The notes beneath the pieces are model-generated. The model did no database searches. It saw only the letters and a list, made by a program, of their open reading frames with translations, and was not told the origin of the DNA. Made by a program: the position numbers and the translations under genes. A stretch of 56,119 bases of DNA from positions 1 to 56,119 of the forward strand of contig WFZS01000161.1 of the NCBI GenBank assembly GCA_015489465.1, given 5' to 3'. This stretch comes from Bacteroidales bacterium (GTDB lineage Bacteria; Bacteroidota; Bacteroidia; Bacteroidales; F082). Shown here piece by piece: positions 184 through 17,461 of the stretch (the first letter of the stretch is position 1; every line of letters starts with the position of its first letter).

Positions 184-236
184 GGTGTCATTGGTAGCTT
201 GTCGAATAGTGGCAGGGTAAGCCTATCCACGCACGG
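184..236 (+). repeat. Type B repeat, truncated copy 2
   Basis: Shares tgtcattggtag and gtcgaatagtgg with the copies at 47 and 16601. It lacks the terminal TGTCACAC palindrome, because it runs straight into an inverted type C element at 231. The junction looks like a fusion of two modules. Confidence 0.7.
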
Positions 237-283
237 TTTTATACGATATTCCCAAAGGTCGCATCACTCACCGTGACAAGCCG
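231..283 (-). repeat. Type C palindromic repeat, inverted copy
   Basis: Read on the minus strand this is TGTCACGGTGAG, then an inner module TGATGCGACCTTTGGGAATA, then an ACCGTG closing arm. It matches the elements at 16002 and 16391 in reverse orientation with a few substitutions in the inner module. The outer stem CACGGT/ACCGTG is conserved. Confidence 0.75.
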
Positions 284-1203: not shown

Positions 1204-2970
1204 TTATTTTTCTTCCTGTTTGTCTTCAACAATTTTAAGATGCAGCTCTTCCAACTGTTCTTCCGATATTGTGGAAGGTGAGTCAATCATCATATCCCTT
1301 CCGGCATTATTTTTCGGGAAAGCGATAAAATCACGTATAGAATCTTGTCCTCCGAACAAGGCTGCCAAACGGTCGAATCCCAAAGCTATGCCACCGTGAG
1401 GAGGTGCTCCGTATTCAAAAGCATTCATCAAAAATCCGAACTGCTTTTGTGCATCTTCATCGCTGAAGCCCAGAACTTTAAACATAAGTTTTTGAAGGTC
1501 TCTATTGTGAATTCTTATGGAGCCTCCGCCAATCTCAACACCGTTTATTACCAAGTCGTAAGCATTTGCTCTTACTTTTCCGGGGTCGGTTTCCAACAAA
1601 GCGATATCTTCAGGTTTCGGTGATGTAAAAGGGTGATGCATTGCATGATAGCGTTCATTTTCCTCGTCCCATTCCAAAAGCGGAAAATCGGTAACCCACA
1701 AGGGTTTGAAAACATCCGGATTTCTTAACCCGAGGCGCTCACCCATTTCAAGTCTTAATTCATTCAGTTGCTTACGCACTTTTTCGGCTTCTCCTGAGAG
1801 TACCAACATAAGATCGCCGGGTTTTGCACCGAATTTATCCGCCCATTGTTTTAAGTCTTCTTGAGTGAAAAATTTATCAACAGACGATTTGAAAGTTCCG
1901 TCTTCGTTATATTTTACGTAAACCAATCCTTTGGCTCCCACTTGCGGGCGACGGACAAACTCGGTTAATTTGTCAAGCTGCTTACGGGTGTAATTAGCGC
2001 AACCTTCGGCATTTATACCTACAACAAGTTCGGCATCATCAAAAATTTTGAAACCTTTATTTTGAGCTACATCGTTAAGTTCCGTAAATTTCATCCCGAA
2101 ACGTAAATCGGGTTTATCGGAACCGTAATATTTCATAGCCTCGTCGTAAGGCATTCTTTGGAGGTCTTCTATTTCGATACCTTTAACTTCTTTGAAAAGA
2201 TATTTAACCAAACCTTCAAAAGTGTTAAGAATATCTTCCTGTTCCACAAAAGACATTTCGCAGTCTATTTGCGTAAACTCGGGTTGGCGGTCGGCACGCA
2301 AGTCTTCATCCCTGAAGCATTTAACGATTTGATAATAGCGGTCGTAACCGGCAACCATCAACAGCTGTTTAAATGTTTGTGGCGACTGCGGTAAAGCATA
2401 AAATTCGCCGGGGTGGATACGCGAAGGAACAACAAAATCGCGTGCACCTTCAGGTGTGGATTTTATAAGGTAAGGTGTTTCCACTTCCACGAAATTTTGG
2501 CTGTCGAGATATTTTCGTGTTTCCATGGAAAGTTTATGACGCAGCAACAGGTTGTTTTTCAAAGGGTTTCTGCGCAAGTCGAGGTAGCGGTATTTCATTC
2601 TCAACTCTTCACCGCCGTCGGTTTCATCTTCAATGGTAAAAGGAGGAATTTTCGATTCGTTTAATATCTCTATAGCGTTTACGTCTATTTCTATGTCGCC
2701 GGTAGGCATTTTGGGATTTTTCGATTCCCTTTCGATAACTTTACCGGAAACTTTTACAACATATTCACGTCCCAACTTCCTTACAGTATCAATAATTTCC
2801 TGCGGGGTTCGTCCTTCTTCCAAAAACAACTGGGTTATGCCGTAACGGTCGCGTAAAGTAACCCATATAAGTTTACCTTTATCTCTTATTGTTTGAACCC
2901 ATCCCGAAAGGACAACATCTTTATTTACATCTGTAAGGCGTAGTTCGCCGCATGTATGTGTTCTTAACAT
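1204..2970 (-). CDS. aspS: Aspartyl-tRNA synthetase
   Basis: A 588-residue class IIb synthetase that charges tRNA-Asp, full length for the bacterial type. The N-terminal OB-fold anticodon-binding domain spans about residues 1-105. Class II motif 2 ([18 protein letters not shown]) lies near residue 220, the bacterial-specific GAD insertion covers about 285-410, and motif 3 ([13 protein letters not shown]) lies near 525. The ATG at 2970 begins [11 protein letters not shown], the usual start for the family. Presence of the GAD insert marks it as bacterial rather than archaeal in type. The patatin-like gene starts two bases beyond its stop, suggesting a bicistronic transcript. Upstream is a weak -7 element and the terminator of the ribosomal-protein operon. 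Confidence 0.97.
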
Positions 2971-2994
2971 GATTAATATTTTTTAAAAACTGTG

Positions 2995-3002
2995 CGAAGG
3001 TA
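2995..3002 (-). promoter_or_regulatory. Candidate -7 promoter element of aspS
   Basis: Minus-strand TACCTTCG is one mismatch from the Bacteroidota -7 consensus TAnnTTTG. It lies 25 bases before the aspS ATG and directly follows the rplI terminator. No convincing -33 element is seen. Confidence 0.4.
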
Positions 3003-3037
3003 TAAAAAAAGCCCCACCGAACGGAAGGGCTTTTGTT
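3003..3037 (-). terminator. Intrinsic terminator after rplI
   Basis: On the minus strand an AAGCCC arm and a GGGGCTT arm form a hairpin followed by a run of seven T. It ends the rpsF-rpsR-rplI operon about 20 bases past the rplI stop. Confidence 0.85.
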
Positions 3038-5614: not shown

Positions 5615-7273
5615 TTAAAGTCCTAAAACTTCGGGTCCCTGTTCAAAATATATATCAACGGGAATACCCATGTTATTTACTTTGTCAAGGTCTTTTTGCA
5701 AAGTAGCCGGTATTTTACCGTCTTCTTCAATCCATTGTTTTGCAGCTTCATAATCGCCGTCGCCTTGTATTTTTAATATTTTACGTGTAAGCTCTTCCGA
5801 TGCTTGTTTCATTTTGTCGAAATTTACCGAATATGTACCGTCGGCATTTCTTGTGAAAGCACCTTTTTTAAGGAAAAAGTTGAACCGTAGCATATTAGCC
5901 ATACCGTGAGCGCTTGACGCACCGAACCTTACCGAACGGAAAATACCGGCCATAAACGTTACGTAGTTTTCTTTCAGGTCGGTTTTAAATTCACCCATTT
6001 TAGCAAGTTTGTCGATTATGTAAAGTCCTAAAATATCTGCTTTACCTTCTTCAATAGCCGAAAATTTTTCCTTAAGAACTTTACGAACGGGACCTTTACC
6101 CGTTATCGTATTTTTAATACCCATGCCGTGAGCAACCTCATGGAACATTGTATTAGCAAAAAAGGCGTTGAATGTTATGTATTTTCTTTGGTCGGGAGAT
6201 ATCAATACATTTGAAATAGGTACCAATATTTCATCGAATTTGGCTTTCATGGCATTTTTCAACTGCAATTTACGTGTACCTTTTTTCAGTTGTACGCGCT
6301 CATCGTTTGGCAGGTTGATAGCTATGGTTTTTCCTCCCATATTGCAATCTCCCGCGTAATAAACAACATCGTAGGCATTTAAGTCTGCTTTGGAACCCGG
6401 CTTTTCTTTTTTATATTTTTCCGGTACGGGAAGTTCCTTTTGCATTCTGGGTAAGAATTTTGCATATTTGGCAAGCTTCTTACTCCATTCTATATCTTTA
6501 ATCAGTATAAACGATTCGTGAGCCGCTTTGTATCCGAAAAGCTGATCGGTATAATTTTCAATGGGCCCGATAACCAAATCCACTTTGTTGTTGTTCATAT
6601 CAAGCCATGCCATATCGCTTTTGTAATAATCATCGGTACGCAAAGCTTCGGCTCTCAATTTCAGATATTTTTTAAAACCCGGGTTTTCGGCAAGTTCTGC
6701 TGCTTTGTCAAGTAAATTTGCAGCCGTTTCTATTTCTTTTTTGAAATATTCGTGATACCAAACCGATTGTAAAGCTCCTTGTGAGTTTCTCACTATCATT
6801 GTGTATTGACTTGTTTTGTCGGGTGAGTTGAATTTTTCAAACTCTTTTACCGTCATGTCGTGAGGATAAAAGTTGGCACCTTTGGGTTTGGGACCCCAAC
6901 CCGGAATAAACGGTTTTAAATCGTTAAGCTCATCCCAAGGTCCGTAGTTTATTTCGGCATATTGTTTCAGCTCTTTATCGTGTATTGAGCTTAAAAACTC
7001 GTCTTTCGGACCTACGTTTTCTTGCCAAAATATCTCATCCATAATATCTGCGGCTTTGAACAACAGTTTCAACATCTCCTTTTGGTTATCCGAAAGGCCT
7101 GATATGTCGGCTGTGAGCTTAACTTTGGCGTATTTTTTCATCTTATATTTTTCTTGTTTTTCCGTTTTTTGCGGTTGTTTTTTTGTCTCTTTTTTATTTT
7201 CTCCCGATTTACAGGAAATAAGATTTATTGCCATAAAAAGGGCTAAACCGATTATTATGATTTTTCGTTTCAT
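5615..7273 (-). CDS. M49-like (dipeptidyl peptidase III-like) zinc lipoprotein
   Basis: A 552-residue lipoprotein. The signal peptide MKRKIIIIGLALFMAINLISC ends in a lipobox (LISC), so it should be membrane-anchored after LspA cleavage. The zinc site is visible: His378-Glu379-Val-Ala-His382 (HEVAH), with a downstream EEGKAD (408-413) resembling the EECRAE motif of dipeptidyl peptidase III. Classical M49 enzymes have a six-residue HExxGH; this one has the five-residue form that I recall from Caldithrix DPP III. M49 enzymes trim peptides two residues at a time; here the location would be envelope rather than cytosol. Length is shorter than the eukaryotic enzyme (about 730). It is followed by an intrinsic terminator and preceded by the metallo-hydrolase 25 bases away. 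Family assignment is good; substrate is inferred. Confidence 0.72.
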   Translation of the reverse strand: MKRKIIIIGLALFMAINLISCKSGENKKETKKQPQKTEKQEKYKMKKYAKVKLTADISGLSDNQKEMLKLLFKAADIMDEIFWQENVGPKDEFLSSIHDKELKQYAEINYGPWDELNDLKPFIPGWGPKPKGANFYPHDMTVKEFEKFNSPDKTSQYTMIVRNSQGALQSVWYHEYFKKEIETAANLLDKAAELAENPGFKKYLKLRAEALRTDDYYKSDMAWLDMNNNKVDLVIGPIENYTDQLFGYKAAHESFILIKDIEWSKKLAKYAKFLPRMQKELPVPEKYKKEKPGSKADLNAYDVVYYAGDCNMGGKTIAINLPNDERVQLKKGTRKLQLKNAMKAKFDEILVPISNVLISPDQRKYITFNAFFANTMFHEVAHGMGIKNTITGKGPVRKVLKEKFSAIEEGKADILGLYIIDKLAKMGEFKTDLKENYVTFMAGIFRSVRFGASSAHGMANMLRFNFFLKKGAFTRNADGTYSVNFDKMKQASEELTRKILKIQGDGDYEAAKQWIEEDGKIPATLQKDLDKVNNMGIPVDIYFEQGPEVLGL

Positions 7274-8632: not shown

Positions 8633-9738
8633 TGTGTTTTGAAAATTTTGGTATTGTAAACAAATTTACCGTCGGATGTTTTAAAAACGAACAAATATAA
8701 TCCCGAAGGCAGATTATTCATATCCAATCTGTTTTTATTACTTGTTAATTTTCCTTCAAAAAGTTCCCGACCTGTGGAGTTATAAACGTAATACATTACA
8801 TCCTCTTTTCCGGTAAAATTTACGTTAATATTATCGATAACAGGATTAGGGAAAACAGATATCTCATATTTAAGAGGTTCTTTTACCGATGTAGGGTCAA
8901 CCCATATTGCCGTAATGTATTCCGGATGATCCACAAAAGGATTTCTGTTGTGTTGGAACTGATAAATTTTGTTGTTTCTGTCAATTTCCTTTTGACTTAC
9001 GGGGTCTTGGTTATTCCATTTTACCAGGAGGTCGAGGTACCAGTTTTCGAAAACATGATCGCTTGTTCCGTCAAGTACGGCATCTGCGTTTGCACTGTTA
9101 TTTTCCCATCCGGCAATTTTATTTTGATATCTTGTTGCCATGTAAAAATATATTCTTGCCAAATCGCCTTTAAATTCATCAATAGGTTCAAAAGCAGTGC
9201 CTGAGTATCCCGGTACGTTGCTTGTTCCCAGCTTACTGCCGTTTTCAGATTCCCAGCTGACATTTCCCACTTCAGAATAAGGATGATTGCTACGGCGACC
9301 GTTAACATATCCGTCGGTGGGTAAAATATGTACGGCATCACTTTTCATGGGAGCCGTATTGTTAAACCAACTTTTCGGAAAAGTATGTTCGCGGTTGTAA
9401 CAGTCACCTTCGGAGCTGTAACTTCCGCACTGGTCGGTACCTGCATGAAATTCATATGGATTGTTACCATCCGGGTTGTACGAATATATATCCCAAATTA
9501 TGTTGGTGGAATTACCGCTGTTAGTAAGTTCCGGCGGTAAAATATCGGCGGTTTTGTAAAAAGTCCATAATGCCGAATATCCTTGGTCATCGTGATTTTT
9601 AATAATGTTAAACAAAGCCGTTTTAAGCTGGTATCCACTCAATCCTTCGGCATCGTCATAATAACCGGGAGGAATTTGCGCATTTGAAGATATTGAAAAA
9701 AAGAAAAATGATAATATCAATAAATAAATTTTGTTCAT
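8629..9738 (-). CDS. Exported endonuclease I with T9SS sorting domain
   Basis: A 369-residue secreted nuclease. Residues 1-21 (MNKIYLLILSFFFFSISSNAQ) are a signal peptide. The endonuclease I (EndA/NucM) domain follows, with NREHTFPKSW (catalytic His118) and the metal-binding DGYVNGRRSNHPY (142-154). The cysteine-bearing CGSYSSEGDCYN segment precedes it. From about residue 295 a linker leads to a T9SS type A sorting domain (YEISVFPNPVIDNINVNF, then LPSGLYLFVFKTSDGK and KIFKTQ). It probably degrades extracellular DNA for nutrient uptake. The gene is coupled to queD by a four-base overlap, although no functional link between them is evident. Confidence 0.92.
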   Translation of the reverse strand: MNKIYLLILSFFFFSISSNAQIPPGYYDDAEGLSGYQLKTALFNIIKNHDDQGYSALWTFYKTADILPPELTNSGNSTNIIWDIYSYNPDGNNPYEFHAGTDQCGSYSSEGDCYNREHTFPKSWFNNTAPMKSDAVHILPTDGYVNGRRSNHPYSEVGNVSWESENGSKLGTSNVPGYSGTAFEPIDEFKGDLARIYFYMATRYQNKIAGWENNSANADAVLDGTSDHVFENWYLDLLVKWNNQDPVSQKEIDRNNKIYQFQHNRNPFVDHPEYITAIWVDPTSVKEPLKYEISVFPNPVIDNINVNFTGKEDVMYYVYNSTGRELFEGKLTSNKNRLDMNNLPSGLYLFVFKTSDGKFVYNTKIFKTQ

Positions 9739-14101: not shown

Positions 14102-15439
14102 TTGAAACCTTTTGTAATAAAAAATGCAACCGTTGTTAACGAAGGAAAAATTTTTGTTGCCAATGTTTATGTTTCGGGTGAATTTATAGAAGATATTACC
14201 GAACCCGGAGTAATAAAAGAGGGTTTTGAAATATTTGACGCCAACGGTCTTTATCTTTTGCCAGGCGTTATTGACGACCAGGTTCATTTTAGAGATCCCG
14301 GATTAACATATAAAGCGGATATCTTTACCGAAAGTAAAGCTGCCGTTGCAGGAGGCGTTACCTCTTTTATGGATATGCCCAACACTGTTCCCAACACGCT
14401 TACGCAAAAGCTTCTGGAGGAAAAATATTCGGAAGCATCAAAAAAATCGTTAGCGAACTACTCTTTTTATATGGGTGCTTCAAACGATAACCTTGAAGAA
14501 ATCGTAAAAACCGACCCGCGGAAAGTTTGCGGTATAAAAGTGTTTATGGGTTCCTCAACGGGCAACATGCTTGTTGATGACGATGAGGTTTTGGAAGAAA
14601 TTTTTAAAAAAGCCCCCACACTGGTAGCGACTCATTGTGAAGATGAGGATACTATAAAGAAAAACACGAAAATTTTCAAAGAAAAATACGGTGACGATGC
14701 TCCTGCCCGGATTCATCCTTTAATACGAAGTGCCAAGGCATGTTATCTTTCATCGTCAAAAGCTGTAAAGCTGGCAAAAAAACACAATACACGTCTTCAC
14801 GTTTTACATCTTTCCACTGCCATCGAAACGGAATTATTTGACAACACTATTCCTTTGGAAGAAAAACGGATAACGGCGGAGGTGTGCGTTCATCATTTGT
14901 GGTTTTCGGACCGGAGTTATGATAATAAAGGTAATTTCATAAAATGGAACCCTGCAGTAAAAACCGAAAGTGATAGAAAAGCCTTGTTAAAGGCATTACT
15001 GGACGACAGACTTGATGTTGTTGCCACCGACCATGCTCCTCATACCTTGGAAGAAAAGCAACGTCCGTATTTTAAAGCTCCTTCCGGCGGTCCCATGGTT
15101 CAGCATTCTTTACAAGCTATGCTTGAATTTTATCAAGGGGGAGAAATATCATTGGAAAAAACAGTTGAAAAAATGTGTCATAATCCCGCAAGACTTTTCA
15201 GAATCGAAAAGCGCGGATTTATAAGAAAAGGATATTTTGCCGATTTGGTTTTGGTTGAATTTGACAAACTTTTTACTGTTGAAAAAAGCAATATTTTATA
15301 CAAATGCGGTTGGTCGCCTCTGGAAGGGGCTATTTTTAACTCAATAATAGTTGCAACATTTGTTAACGGCAATAAAGTTTACCACAAAGGTGTTTTCGAT
15401 GAAAATGTAAAAGGGAAAAGACTAACTTTCGACCGGTAG
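14102..15439 (+). CDS. pyrC: Dihydroorotase (pyrC-type, class I-like)
   Basis: A 445-residue amidohydrolase for pyrimidine synthesis (carbamoyl-aspartate to dihydroorotate). Landmarks are LPGVIDDQVHFRDPGLTYKADI (53-74), the carbamylated Lys146 in CGIKVFMGSS, His179 in THCED, RLHVLHLST, and TDHAPHTLEEK. The first His of the usual HxH motif is Gln60 (Q-V-H-F-R), which I believe is common in Bacteroidota homologues. The start is a TTG at 14102, three bases after the preceding stop; no in-frame ATG precedes the conserved domain. Convergent with recO across the large repeat region. Allantoinase or hydantoinase is a less likely alternative. Confidence 0.88.
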   Translation: MKPFVIKNATVVNEGKIFVANVYVSGEFIEDITEPGVIKEGFEIFDANGLYLLPGVIDDQVHFRDPGLTYKADIFTESKAAVAGGVTSFMDMPNTVPNTLTQKLLEEKYSEASKKSLANYSFYMGASNDNLEEIVKTDPRKVCGIKVFMGSSTGNMLVDDDEVLEEIFKKAPTLVATHCEDEDTIKKNTKIFKEKYGDDAPARIHPLIRSAKACYLSSSKAVKLAKKHNTRLHVLHLSTAIETELFDNTIPLEEKRITAEVCVHHLWFSDRSYDNKGNFIKWNPAVKTESDRKALLKALLDDRLDVVATDHAPHTLEEKQRPYFKAPSGGPMVQHSLQAMLEFYQGGEISLEKTVEKMCHNPARLFRIEKRGFIRKGYFADLVLVEFDKLFTVEKSNILYKCGWSPLEGAIFNSIIVATFVNGNKVYHKGVFDENVKGKRLTFDR

Positions 15440-15887: not shown

Positions 15888-15940
15888 GATTGTCACGGTG
15901 AGCAGCCTGCCAAATGGCAGGTAAGTCGAACCGTGCGTGC
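15888..15940 (+). repeat. Type C palindrome with a different inner hairpin
   Basis: The outer arms gtcacggtgag and tcgaaccgtgcg match those at 16002 and 16391. The interior is instead a compact hairpin, CCTGCC-AAAT-GGCAGG, flanked by a few bases. The element is followed by ctaccaatgacgtc, the junction word also seen at 15834 and, inverted, at 47-60. Confidence 0.8.
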
Positions 15941-16001
15941 GGTGACTACCAATGACGTCTTTTTAAATACTTGTAAATCAATCTATAAAAATTGCGCCCG
16001 A

Positions 16002-16097
16002 GATTGTCACGGTGAGTGATGCGACCTTTAGGAGCATCGTATCGAACCGTGCGAGGAGTGGCTTGTCCCGCCACATTTCGACAGGCTCATTGTGACA
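16002..16097 (+). repeat. Composite palindromic element, copy 1
   Basis: The first 52 bases (16002-16053) are identical to 16391-16442: gattgtcacggtgag, then an inner GATGC-loop-GCATC module, then tcgaaccgtgcg. A spacer leads to an opposite-facing half (tttcgacaggctcattgtga). The arrangement of two facing palindromic units is like a BIME (paired REP elements). Confidence 0.85.
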
Positions 16098-16117
16098 GCC
16101 TCCCCTTCCTACAATTA

Positions 16118-16382
16118 CGTCATTTACCGATTGTTGAAAAATTTTTTTCTTCCCTCTCACTGTGACACCTTGCACGCCGACAAAACTATTAACGATTAAC
16201 TTTTTAAACTACCTTGAACAACTTCGAACCACTTTGAACAACTCTGAACACAAACGCTAAATTCAGAATTGAATATCGAACGCCGAACGGCGAATATCGA
16301 TTAACGATTTAAGATTTAGTGAATAATGGTGAAGTTGAGACTTTCGACTTTCAGACCTTCTGACTTTCGACCTTCCCACCTT
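16118..16382 (+). repeat. Type A repeat, copy 2
   Basis: This direct, diverged duplicate of 15572-15832 begins cgtcatttaccgattgttg. Its first 45-50 bases recur at 16508 and at 42076. A gaacgccgaacggcgaat palindromic piece lies near 16280. Confidence 0.75.
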
Positions 16383-16390
16383 AAGCGTCG

Positions 16391-16485
16391 GATTGTCACG
16401 GTGAGTGATGCGACCTTTAGGAGCATCGTATCGAACCGTGCGTGCGGCGGCTTCCCCTGCCATGGTTCGACAAGCTCACCATGAC
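16391..16485 (+). repeat. Composite palindromic element, copy 2
   Basis: The first 52 bases are identical to 16002-16053. The second half, catggttcgacaagctcacc followed by atgac, faces the opposite way, giving a long inverted pair. The tcgacaagctcac word is a REP-like motif widespread in bacterial genomes. Confidence 0.85.
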
Positions 16486-16507
16486 TGCCTCTCCCGCCCT
16501 GATACAA

Positions 16508-16556
16508 CGTCATTTAAGATTGTTGAAAATTTATTTTCTTCTCTCTCACTGTGACA
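16508..16556 (+). repeat. Type A repeat, truncated copy 3
   Basis: cgtcatttaagattgttgaa plus the T-rich run and ctctctcactgtgacaat repeat only the first 50 bases of type A. The truncation point is near the gtgaca word, the same boundary as in the copy at 42076. Confidence 0.75.
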
Positions 16557-16738: not shown

Positions 16739-17461
16739 TCAAAAAATCATCCTTAAAATCTCCAAGCTTTTTATCTCCCCGAAATGTTCTATCTGTAAAC
16801 GGTAATACCGCATCAATACATCCAACACGTCACTCCTTTCCGAAGCGGTAATTTTAAAACCACTTGTATTACCGGAAGCAACATCAACAAGTTTACGGAA
16901 AAGTTCCGCGGTTTTCCCCGTTACATAATTAGGGTGTAAAGGTTCATTATTAGTAAAAACGCCCTCTACCATATCAAAATAACGGAATCTGTTAACGGAA
17001 GGTGATTTCGGAAAAAATCCCAAAAACTTGGATAACCTTATCAAAAAGAACAAATGGAAATTTGCAGTATTTTCTTTACTTAAATCGTACCATATTAACG
17101 ATTGCCAGAGCCAGTTAAAAAATTCTTTATCCGGAAAACGGTCTTTTAAGGAGCGGTTTAATACTTCATCGAGAAAAATGACTACGGAACGTTTTACGGC
17201 ATCATCGTAGATGCAAGAATAACCGTGTGAAACACTAATTTCTTTTATATGGTTAAGTTGTTTGTTTTCGCGGGCATAAACGGACATCTCAAGAAGTTGT
17301 AAAGGTCGAAACAGTGCAGCTTTCATCTCGCCTTTTTTTGACCTTACCCCCTTCACAATGTATGACATCACACCTTCTTCTTCGGTAAATATCTTCACTA
17401 TCAAACTCGTGTCTGAATATTTTACCGAACTTATTACTATCCCTCTGGTATTCAGAAGCAT
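16739..17461 (-). CDS. recO: DNA repair protein RecO
   Basis: A 240-residue RecO, the mediator that helps load RecA on SSB-coated DNA and anneals strands in the RecFOR pathway. The N-terminal OB fold is evident in TRGIVISSVKYSDTSLIVKIFTEEEGVMSYIVKGVRSKKGEMKAALFRPLQLLEM. The helical C-terminal domain follows, ending HFGEIKSLEILRMIF. The zinc-finger cysteines found in some RecO proteins are absent. It starts 21 bases after the porZ stop, so it is probably co-transcribed with porZ. The large repeat region begins past its 3' end. Confidence 0.93.
   Translation of the reverse strand: MLLNTRGIVISSVKYSDTSLIVKIFTEEEGVMSYIVKGVRSKKGEMKAALFRPLQLLEMSVYARENKQLNHIKEISVSHGYSCIYDDAVKRSVVIFLDEVLNRSLKDRFPDKEFFNWLWQSLIWYDLSKENTANFHLFFLIRLSKFLGFFPKSPSVNRFRYFDMVEGVFTNNEPLHPNYVTGKTAELFRKLVDVASGNTSGFKITASERSDVLDVLMRYYRLQIEHFGEIKSLEILRMIF

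Follow-up and report, generated by a model that had tools for sequence, protein, structure and literature searches.

Three hairpin elements within a short stretch of DNA share their outer arms and carry different interiors, which raises the question of whether the tip of such a repeat can be exchanged as a block, and by what route. They lie in the window analyzed here, namely, the whole stretch of 56,119 nucleotides that is contig C161 of a 2.74-Mb, 209-contig Bacteroidales genome, inside a 1.3-kb repeat block located between the 3' ends of two convergent genes, the dihydroorotase gene and recO. This block contains five hairpin elements, and the features of the window are as follows.

232 to 277, minus strand: diverged element of B type, in which TCGA has become TAAA; it falls outside all counts that need an intact junction.
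14102 to 15439, plus strand: dihydroorotase gene (NF006688, E 3.7e-215), upstream of the repeat block.
15892 to 15935, plus strand: hairpin element with arms CGG/CCG and an interior of module A, CAGCCTGCCAAATGGCAGGTAAG.
15946 to 16168, plus strand: composite repeat unit 1, of about 220 bp, with both of its hairpins inside; its limits are recurring ends of BLAST matches.
16006 to 16051, plus strand: hairpin element with arms CGG/CCG and module B at 16017-16041 (GATGC..GCATC hairpin); slot 1 of composite unit 1.
16072 to 16096, minus strand: simple hairpin element with arms CAA/ATG and loop CCTG; slot 2 of composite unit 1.
16279 to 16556, plus strand: stretch similar by BLAST to a further copy of this composite repeat (80.6% to locus L091), with the hairpins at 16395 and 16461.
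16395 to 16440, plus strand: hairpin element with arms CGG/CCG and module B at 16406-16430; slot 1 of unit 2.
16461 to 16485, minus strand: simple hairpin element with arms TGG/CCA and loop CTTG; slot 2 of unit 2.
16739 to 17461, minus strand: recO (TIGR00613, E 1.8e-20; PF11967 and PF02565), convergent with the dihydroorotase gene.

The first-pass annotation of this DNA had proposed that three elements have outer arms in common around differing interiors, and this holds for the plus-strand elements at 15892, 16006 and 16395, with starts shifted by about four bases. The diverged inverted copy that it placed near 231 is indeed present as the B form at 232-277. Its fourth, simple version at 16461 follows the same plan, but the arms are TGG/CCA instead of CGG/CCG (GTCATGGTGAG-CTTG-TCGAACCATG, minus strand). 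Absent from it were the second simple element at 16072-16096 (GTCACAATGAG-CCTG-TCGAAATGTG, minus strand) and the 20-bp, head-to-head spacing of the 16006/16072 and 16395/16461 pairs. The interior TGATGCGACCTTTAGGAGCATCGTA is identical in both slot 1 elements of these pairs, and that of the 15892 element (15903-15925) is a CCTGCC-AAAT-GGCAGG hairpin. Since no partner hairpin follows 15892-15935, this element probably represents the first slot of a composite unit that has been truncated. All element copies of the window are intergenic, and five stretches, comprising three single elements and two hairpin pairs, gave DNA folding z-scores from -1.99 to -3.26 against dinucleotide shuffles. An Rfam search of the window at the gathering score returned two tRNAs only, the elements matching no described RNA family.

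The repeat family is real, genome-wide and not a product of chance: the Bacteroidales genome holds 36 exact GTCACGGTGAG-loop-TCGAACCGTG copies and 109 copies of the looser plan GTCA-NNN-TGAG-loop-TCGAA-NNN-TG, with zero matches to the reversed-pattern control in either case. Element statistics were obtained for 100 of these 109 copies (95 in fetched stretches and five in the window), the search pattern missing any copy, such as 232-277, whose junction is mutated. The arms are constrained to pair rather than to keep a given sequence, as the NNN positions are fully complementary (3/3) in 91 of the 100 copies, against a mean of 21.6 and a maximum of 33 in 1000 shuffles, and 13 kinds of left arm occur among the 95 copies outside the window. 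Covariation among 11 distinct B elements, from 13 picked rows, scored 0.112 against 0.058 for shuffles, with none of 500 shuffles reaching it; three pairs are altered on both sides, a number reached by five of 500 shuffles and of a sort that kinship of rows inflates. According to a crude ORF caller, 28 of 129 counted places fall inside ORFs, with the loci overlapping. In the Bacteroidales genome, the gaps that hold elements were nine convergent, seven tandem and zero divergent, in overlapping loci with 32 places cut by an edge and 19 inside called ORFs. Elements often lie near contig ends (e.g. C4:34, C73:24, C208:33), and because of this array sizes are probably underestimated, and the assembly likely broke at elements.

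Loop lengths in the 100 copies fall into two groups, namely, 53 short loops (4 nt in 40 copies and 5 nt in 13) and 47 long loops (23 nt in 11, 24 nt in five, 25 nt in 27 and 26 nt in four), with no loop of 6 to 22 nt. The long loops are hairpin modules, which we refer to as A (CCTGCC..GGCAGG with CAG/TAAG ends), B (GATGC..GCATC) and C (the same CCTGCC palindrome as in A, mostly with CCCG/CTTG or CTGG ends), together with one odd form. Module B is unrelated to A and C, with edit distances of at least 13 for A-B and B-C and of up to 10 inside B. A and C come as close as 5, with a spread of 6 inside C, and have the inner palindrome in common. The earlier proposal of discrete alternative modules, as opposed to continuous drift of one ancestral loop, is sustained by this gap in loop length and by the A-B and B-C distances, A and C being the closer pair; the continuous drift that would have refuted it was not observed.

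The hairpins are slots of a BIME-like repeat of about 220 bp, partly in tandem, with many copies in the Bacteroidales genome, as seen by BLAST against 40 fetched stretches. The arms of slot 1 are CGG, CGC or CGA, and in 27 of 29 pairs its tip is a long module; slot 2, with arms of other kinds and as a rule a simple loop, lies mostly 20 bp from slot 1, head to head. We found 29 such head-to-head dimers, 25 of them with the 20-bp spacer; eight of the 11 tail-tail spacings below 300 bp measure 118-123 bp. Both arms and loop differ within every one of the 29 slot pairs. Arms and loops do not assort freely (Fisher p about 1e-13): long loops occur in 34 of 36 elements with CGG arms and in 13 of the 64 others, an association that arises because CGG arms are characteristic of one of the two slots.

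Within these slots, differing interiors occur in near-identical surroundings. Clustering of the 30-bp upstream flanks (at least 90% identity, single linkage) gave 14 clusters, four of which have mixed interior classes and ten a single class. The mixed clusters are, first, one of 16 copies with 11 simple loops and five of C, one of the latter with TCG arms; second, one of nine with five B (one with CGC arms), two A, one simple and one C; third, one of six with four A and two B; and fourth, a pair with 30/30 identical upstream flanks and interiors B and CTGG. In three cases, one and the same pairing of upstream and downstream cluster carries two interior classes. The cleanest case is that of L068 (C) and L091 (CTTG), which differ by a 20-nt hairpin indel with closely matching flanks on both sides and no target duplication. 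These filled and unfilled pairs are paralogous copies inside one draft assembly of 209 contigs, and a four-gamete test found one complete quartet among the 29 hairpin pairs. Different interiors do occur, as expected of exchangeable tips, in near-identical flanks in four of 14 clusters, but exchange would not be free, given the strong association of CGG arms with long loops.

One tip can be followed beyond this genome. The palindrome M, CCCGCCTGCCGGACGGGCAGG, is found in such loops in several genera of Bacteroidota, in a Chlorobi MAG and in a Peregrinibacteria MAG. When GTDB genomes were scanned for loops of this type with M inside, in forward orientation only, 33 stretches were retrieved, from Muricauda, Allomuricauda, Flagellimonas, Flavivirga, Aestuariivivens, Algoriphagus and further Bacteroidota MAGs, as well as from a Chlorobiaceae MAG and the Peregrinibacteria MAG, the last possibly by a binning error. 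Over all loci there are 46 distinct M-bearing loops, 44 of which could be parsed. The latter have 28 different pairs of 4-bp arms, and the arms are fully complementary in 33 of them (18 distinct pairs). When CCCG-M is deleted in silico, the remaining loop matches that of a simple element in 40 of the 44, namely, CGAAG in 11, CGCAG in ten, CGTAG in six, CGGAG, CTTG and CTGG in three each, CCTG in two, and CTCG and CAGAG in one each. M is oriented forward in all 46 loops and reverse in none; outside the 33 stretches retrieved with the forward-only pattern the count is 13 to 0, seven of these from the Bacteroidales genome. Homology-driven exchange would keep the orientation of M, and its one-way placement is more readily accounted for by transfer through homology, or by descent from a small number of insertions, than by repeated insertion at random. 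Common descent of a single composite whose arms were altered later could also account for it.

M also occurs outside these elements, the first-pass annotation having proposed to test whether inner modules occur alone. In 15 genomes picked for M in the loop, 23 of the 30 M copies examined, out of 52, lie in the GAG/CGA core. In a draw across the phylum, M was present in 16 of 395 genomes, the Bacteroidales genome included; outside the latter, this draw gave 25 loci with 28 sites of 51 copies, or 21 sites after removal of near-identical flanks, and only one of these 21 is in the GAG/CGA core. An insertion of M limited to these loops was rejected on this basis. Nonetheless, a flanking stem score of at least 6 was reached at six of the 21 sites, the core site included, with no such stem at the remaining sites, against 6.4% expected (p 0.0016), an excess that depends on the score threshold (at least 7, 3/21, p 0.0019; at least 5, 7/21, p 0.10; at least 8, one site, p 0.14; at least 9, one site, p 0.10). 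M is thus a separate palindrome that is somewhat over-represented at hairpin tips but not restricted to them. At L249 and L250, in genomes G266 and G408, M has similar flanks in the two genomes and may be located inside one and the same coding sequence.

The explanation that we put forward, and to which we give an even chance, is that of a REP-like family with a constrained lower half and a free tip, in which homology exchanges the tips and palindrome insertion seeds them. The constant part would be the lower half, namely, the TGTC/AGTC foot, a short pairing stem of many sequences and the mismatch junction TGAG/TCGAA, above which any hairpin or short loop may suffice, leaving the tip free to change. 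New tips would be acquired through the insertion into the loop of a short, independent palindrome, M for example, and a tip could then pass between copies via the homology of arms and flanks, by gene conversion or replication template switching. A tip under no sequence constraint would be replaceable wholesale, the shared arms supplying the homology, and transfer of this kind would produce discrete modules in near-unchanged flanks. The pairing constraint, the discrete modules, the differing interiors in near-identical surroundings, the presence of M beyond these elements and its single orientation are shown by the data; we infer that the lower half alone is read by a protein or by the replication machinery, and that the exchange is homology-directed. 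Against exchange by homology stand the ten flank clusters with a single class, the one quartet among 29 pairs, the strong association of arms with loops and the phylum sample, where most copies of M lie outside these loops; in addition, an exchange in progress was not seen, and some mosaics, with many units at contig ends, could be misassembly.

A broader proposal, which we offer tentatively and with well under even confidence, is that hairpin loops in Bacteroidota and beyond serve as a general landing or exchange site for palindromes, giving matryoshka elements without a dedicated transposase. It is possible, if doubtful, that palindromes like M nest in unrelated hairpins, sometimes in several layers, so that shells and cores follow separate courses in evolution and spread. 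A strict search of the fetched loci for nesting (4-bp outer and 3-bp inner complementary arms) yielded two cases, at L131 and L135, in both of which the inner element is inverted. Looser nested forms were read by eye in G002 and G071, in a search whose reversed control equals or exceeds the true matches in several genomes. Also by eye, L150 of Flagellimonas beolgyonensis shows at about 6120-6200 a possible three-layer nesting, an element in an element with M in the center.

The proposed division into a constant lower half and a free tip would be the same one, by analogy, as that required by the E. coli enzyme TnpAREP. According to the accessible part of that study (PMC8266576), this enzyme accepts any loop and also an exchanged upper stem, whereas changes in the lower stem and loss of the upper hairpin are harmful and the mid-stem mismatch is required; the y, z1 and z2 REPs of E. 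coli differ in their upper stem-loops, which TnpAREP reads as structure only. The elements described here resemble E. coli REPs and BIMEs in their foot, common lower stem, mid-stem mismatch and alternative upper stem-loops, and in their heterodimers with different loops and their mosaics (PMC8266576; PMC3733652, as far as available); they are short, high-copy palindromes arranged in dimers and tandem mosaics. They differ in their foot, which is TGTC or AGTC and not the GT[AG]G of RAYT-linked REPs, although GTCA itself is set by the search pattern; among 169 copies from four genomes, GTC is preceded by T in 133, by A in 28 and by G in eight. They differ, too, in that their lower-stem sequence varies widely with compensation, their tips include the cross-genus, independent palindrome M, and their dimers in the Bacteroidales genome are head-head with the feet outside, whereas in the family of E. 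coli REPs tail-tail dimers are commoner than head-head ones (PMC3733652, same part).

Closer relatives may be sought among the CGTC-tagged REPs of Bacteroidetes and Chlorobi. These are described, in the available sections of PMC3733652, as having a CGTC foot, often TGTC and also CCTC, a stem of 8-9 bp whose first two positions are complementary A,T, a CCA tail, loops of 4-5 nt and mostly head-head dimers, often heterodimers, and apparently no dedicated transposase. By this published description, rather than by sequence, our family has head-head heterodimers and an apparent lack of a dedicated transposase in common with them, and may share the TGTC foot and the 4-5 nt loops. However, CGTC is the foot in none of the 169 copies of four genomes, TGTC in 133; the six tails seen most often do not include CCA in any of the four; the second pair of the stem is often other than T-A, with T at position 2 in at least 23 of the 95 copies from this genome (ATGGT in 22, ATAGT in one), the A-T at position 1 being fixed by the search pattern; and about half of the loops are 23-26-nt hairpins, those of 4-5 nt making up 53 of 100.

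Alternative or self-complementary loops on REP stems, heterodimers and REPs inside palindromes are already in print (PMC3733652, in the sections at hand). GTAG-3 and GTAG-14 REPs have two or three discrete loop types per stem, some with paired interiors, and are in this respect alike; those sections describe no loop type as a separate repeat or as swapped in near-identical flanks. The palindrome within a palindrome has counterparts in GTAG-15 of A. variabilis, GTAG-23 of T. roseum and CGTC-1 of H. neapolitanus, but there the REP is the inner part, whereas here the REP-like hairpin is the outer one, with M or another hairpin inside (same sections). The first-pass annotation, which knew of no description of modular loop exchange in REP/BIME elements, thus claimed too much, as GTAG-3/GTAG-14 (PMC3733652) and E. 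coli y/z1/z2 (PMC8266576) show even in the parts consulted. A tip module that is a separate cross-genus palindrome, exchanged in near-identical flanks, was not found in the literature covered, which included few subscription papers, and a text search with six element or M sequences gave zero matches. The family resembles known REP elements, with an unusually clear exchange of tips, and the original interpretation as a whole is partly supported.

The wider question addressed here is the spread of REP-like elements for which no transposase is known, and the reason for their falling into discrete types. In this family the lower half keeps its pairing and the tip changes as a block, one tip being traceable as a separate repeat across genera, which leads to the testable claim that function or replication resides in the lower half, with the tip as a free slot. 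A further caution is that REP families sorted by their loop sequences may lump together things of separate origin.

A different route would be offered by a Y1 (HUH) enzyme, either TnpAREP/RAYT or IS200-type, that has been lost, was missed in the draft or is external, and that recognizes foot, lower stem and mismatch, mobilizes the elements and puts single-stranded hairpins into hairpin loops. The foot, lower stem, mid-stem mismatch, free upper half and heterodimers are like those of E. coli REP recognition (PMC8266576, accessible part), the 20-nt indel lacks a target duplication, and the Y1 transposase domain PF01797 is present in 85 of 100 genomes searched. Even so, we consider this route unlikely. 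The PF01797 profile was not found in the Bacteroidales draft genome, which is the richest in elements of the 100, and Y1 genes do not track elements, being present in 14 of the 16 genomes that have elements and in 71 of the 84 that lack them. Among 20 Y1 neighborhoods in relatives (examined over about 2 kb, often less owing to contig ends, and including nine of 14 same-genus Y1 matches), one clear element, 1.7 kb away, and one poor match were seen. The foot is not GT[AG]G, and the sequence preceding M outside loops is variable by eye. The RAYT link raised at first was dropped, and a RAYT partner rejected, on the absence of PF01797, the few elements by the Y1 genes of relatives and the lack of association; no cognate TnpAREP/RAYT gene flanked by repeats, as in a REPtron, was found, nor was any nuclease or transposase partner identified.

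Ordinary amplification would do without any special role for the loop: the interior classes would be old subfamilies of the BIME-like unit, copied whole, and the apparent exchange would reflect deep divergence plus recombination between unit copies. The location of the hairpins within a partly tandem repeat, the difference of both loop and arms in 29/29 pairs with long slot 1 loops in 27/29, and the ten single-class clusters are all expected from it. It does not sit well with the near-identical flanks common to C and simple loops, nor with M, which occupies the same loop position in several genera and among 28 arm pairs, and occurs outside the elements; we regard this reading as unlikely. That the variation comes from collapsed or chimeric repeats in the draft genome, with its 209 contigs and many elements a few hundred bases from contig ends, seems to us exceedingly improbable, as modules in loops recur in records not labelled as MAGs, those of Muricauda sp. 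CP2A, Flavivirga sp. 57AJ16 and Algoriphagus and in relatives of the genus, and elements of 25-47 bp should be shorter than a typical read.

Relatives of the genus provide comparisons at matching loci. In G003, an M-bearing element lies downstream of the orthologous dihydroorotase gene (1485 bp at 70%), convergent with a tadA-like gene (136.5 bits, for a model cut-off of 150). At another locus, with flanks of about 1.3 and 1.5 kb at 80% identity, G002 and G003 have elements at an equal position that differ in both arms (CATTCT vs CACACT) and loops (CGGAG vs CGTAG). A head-to-head dimer common to both genomes shows four differences in about 56 bp, namely, one compensated arm change and a T-to-G change in both loops alike; its locus is a probable orthologue, going by a 163-bp BLAST match that takes in the dimer. 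Across the relatives, loops are identical in five of seven dimers and arms in none. Loops of such dimers are complementary on one strand, and there may be selection for kissing or for one long hairpin. By the crude ORF caller, the element gaps of the relatives were 32 tandem, seven convergent and four divergent, against a background of 87, 26 and 15, respectively, among all gaps of 30 bp or more at the same loci.

Further arrangements were noticed in these two genomes. Head-to-head dimers with the same loop and different arms occur in G002 and G003 at L187, L206, L218, L219 and L225. In G003 (C352:9020-9594, L205), five identical simple elements, GTCACACTGAGCGTAGTCGAAGTGTG, follow each other in direct order with starts at 9020, 9212, 9329, 9455 and 9569, and in G002 (C100, about 2926-3012, L216) a 17-bp unit with TGAGCGGAGTCGAAG forms head-to-tail repeats.
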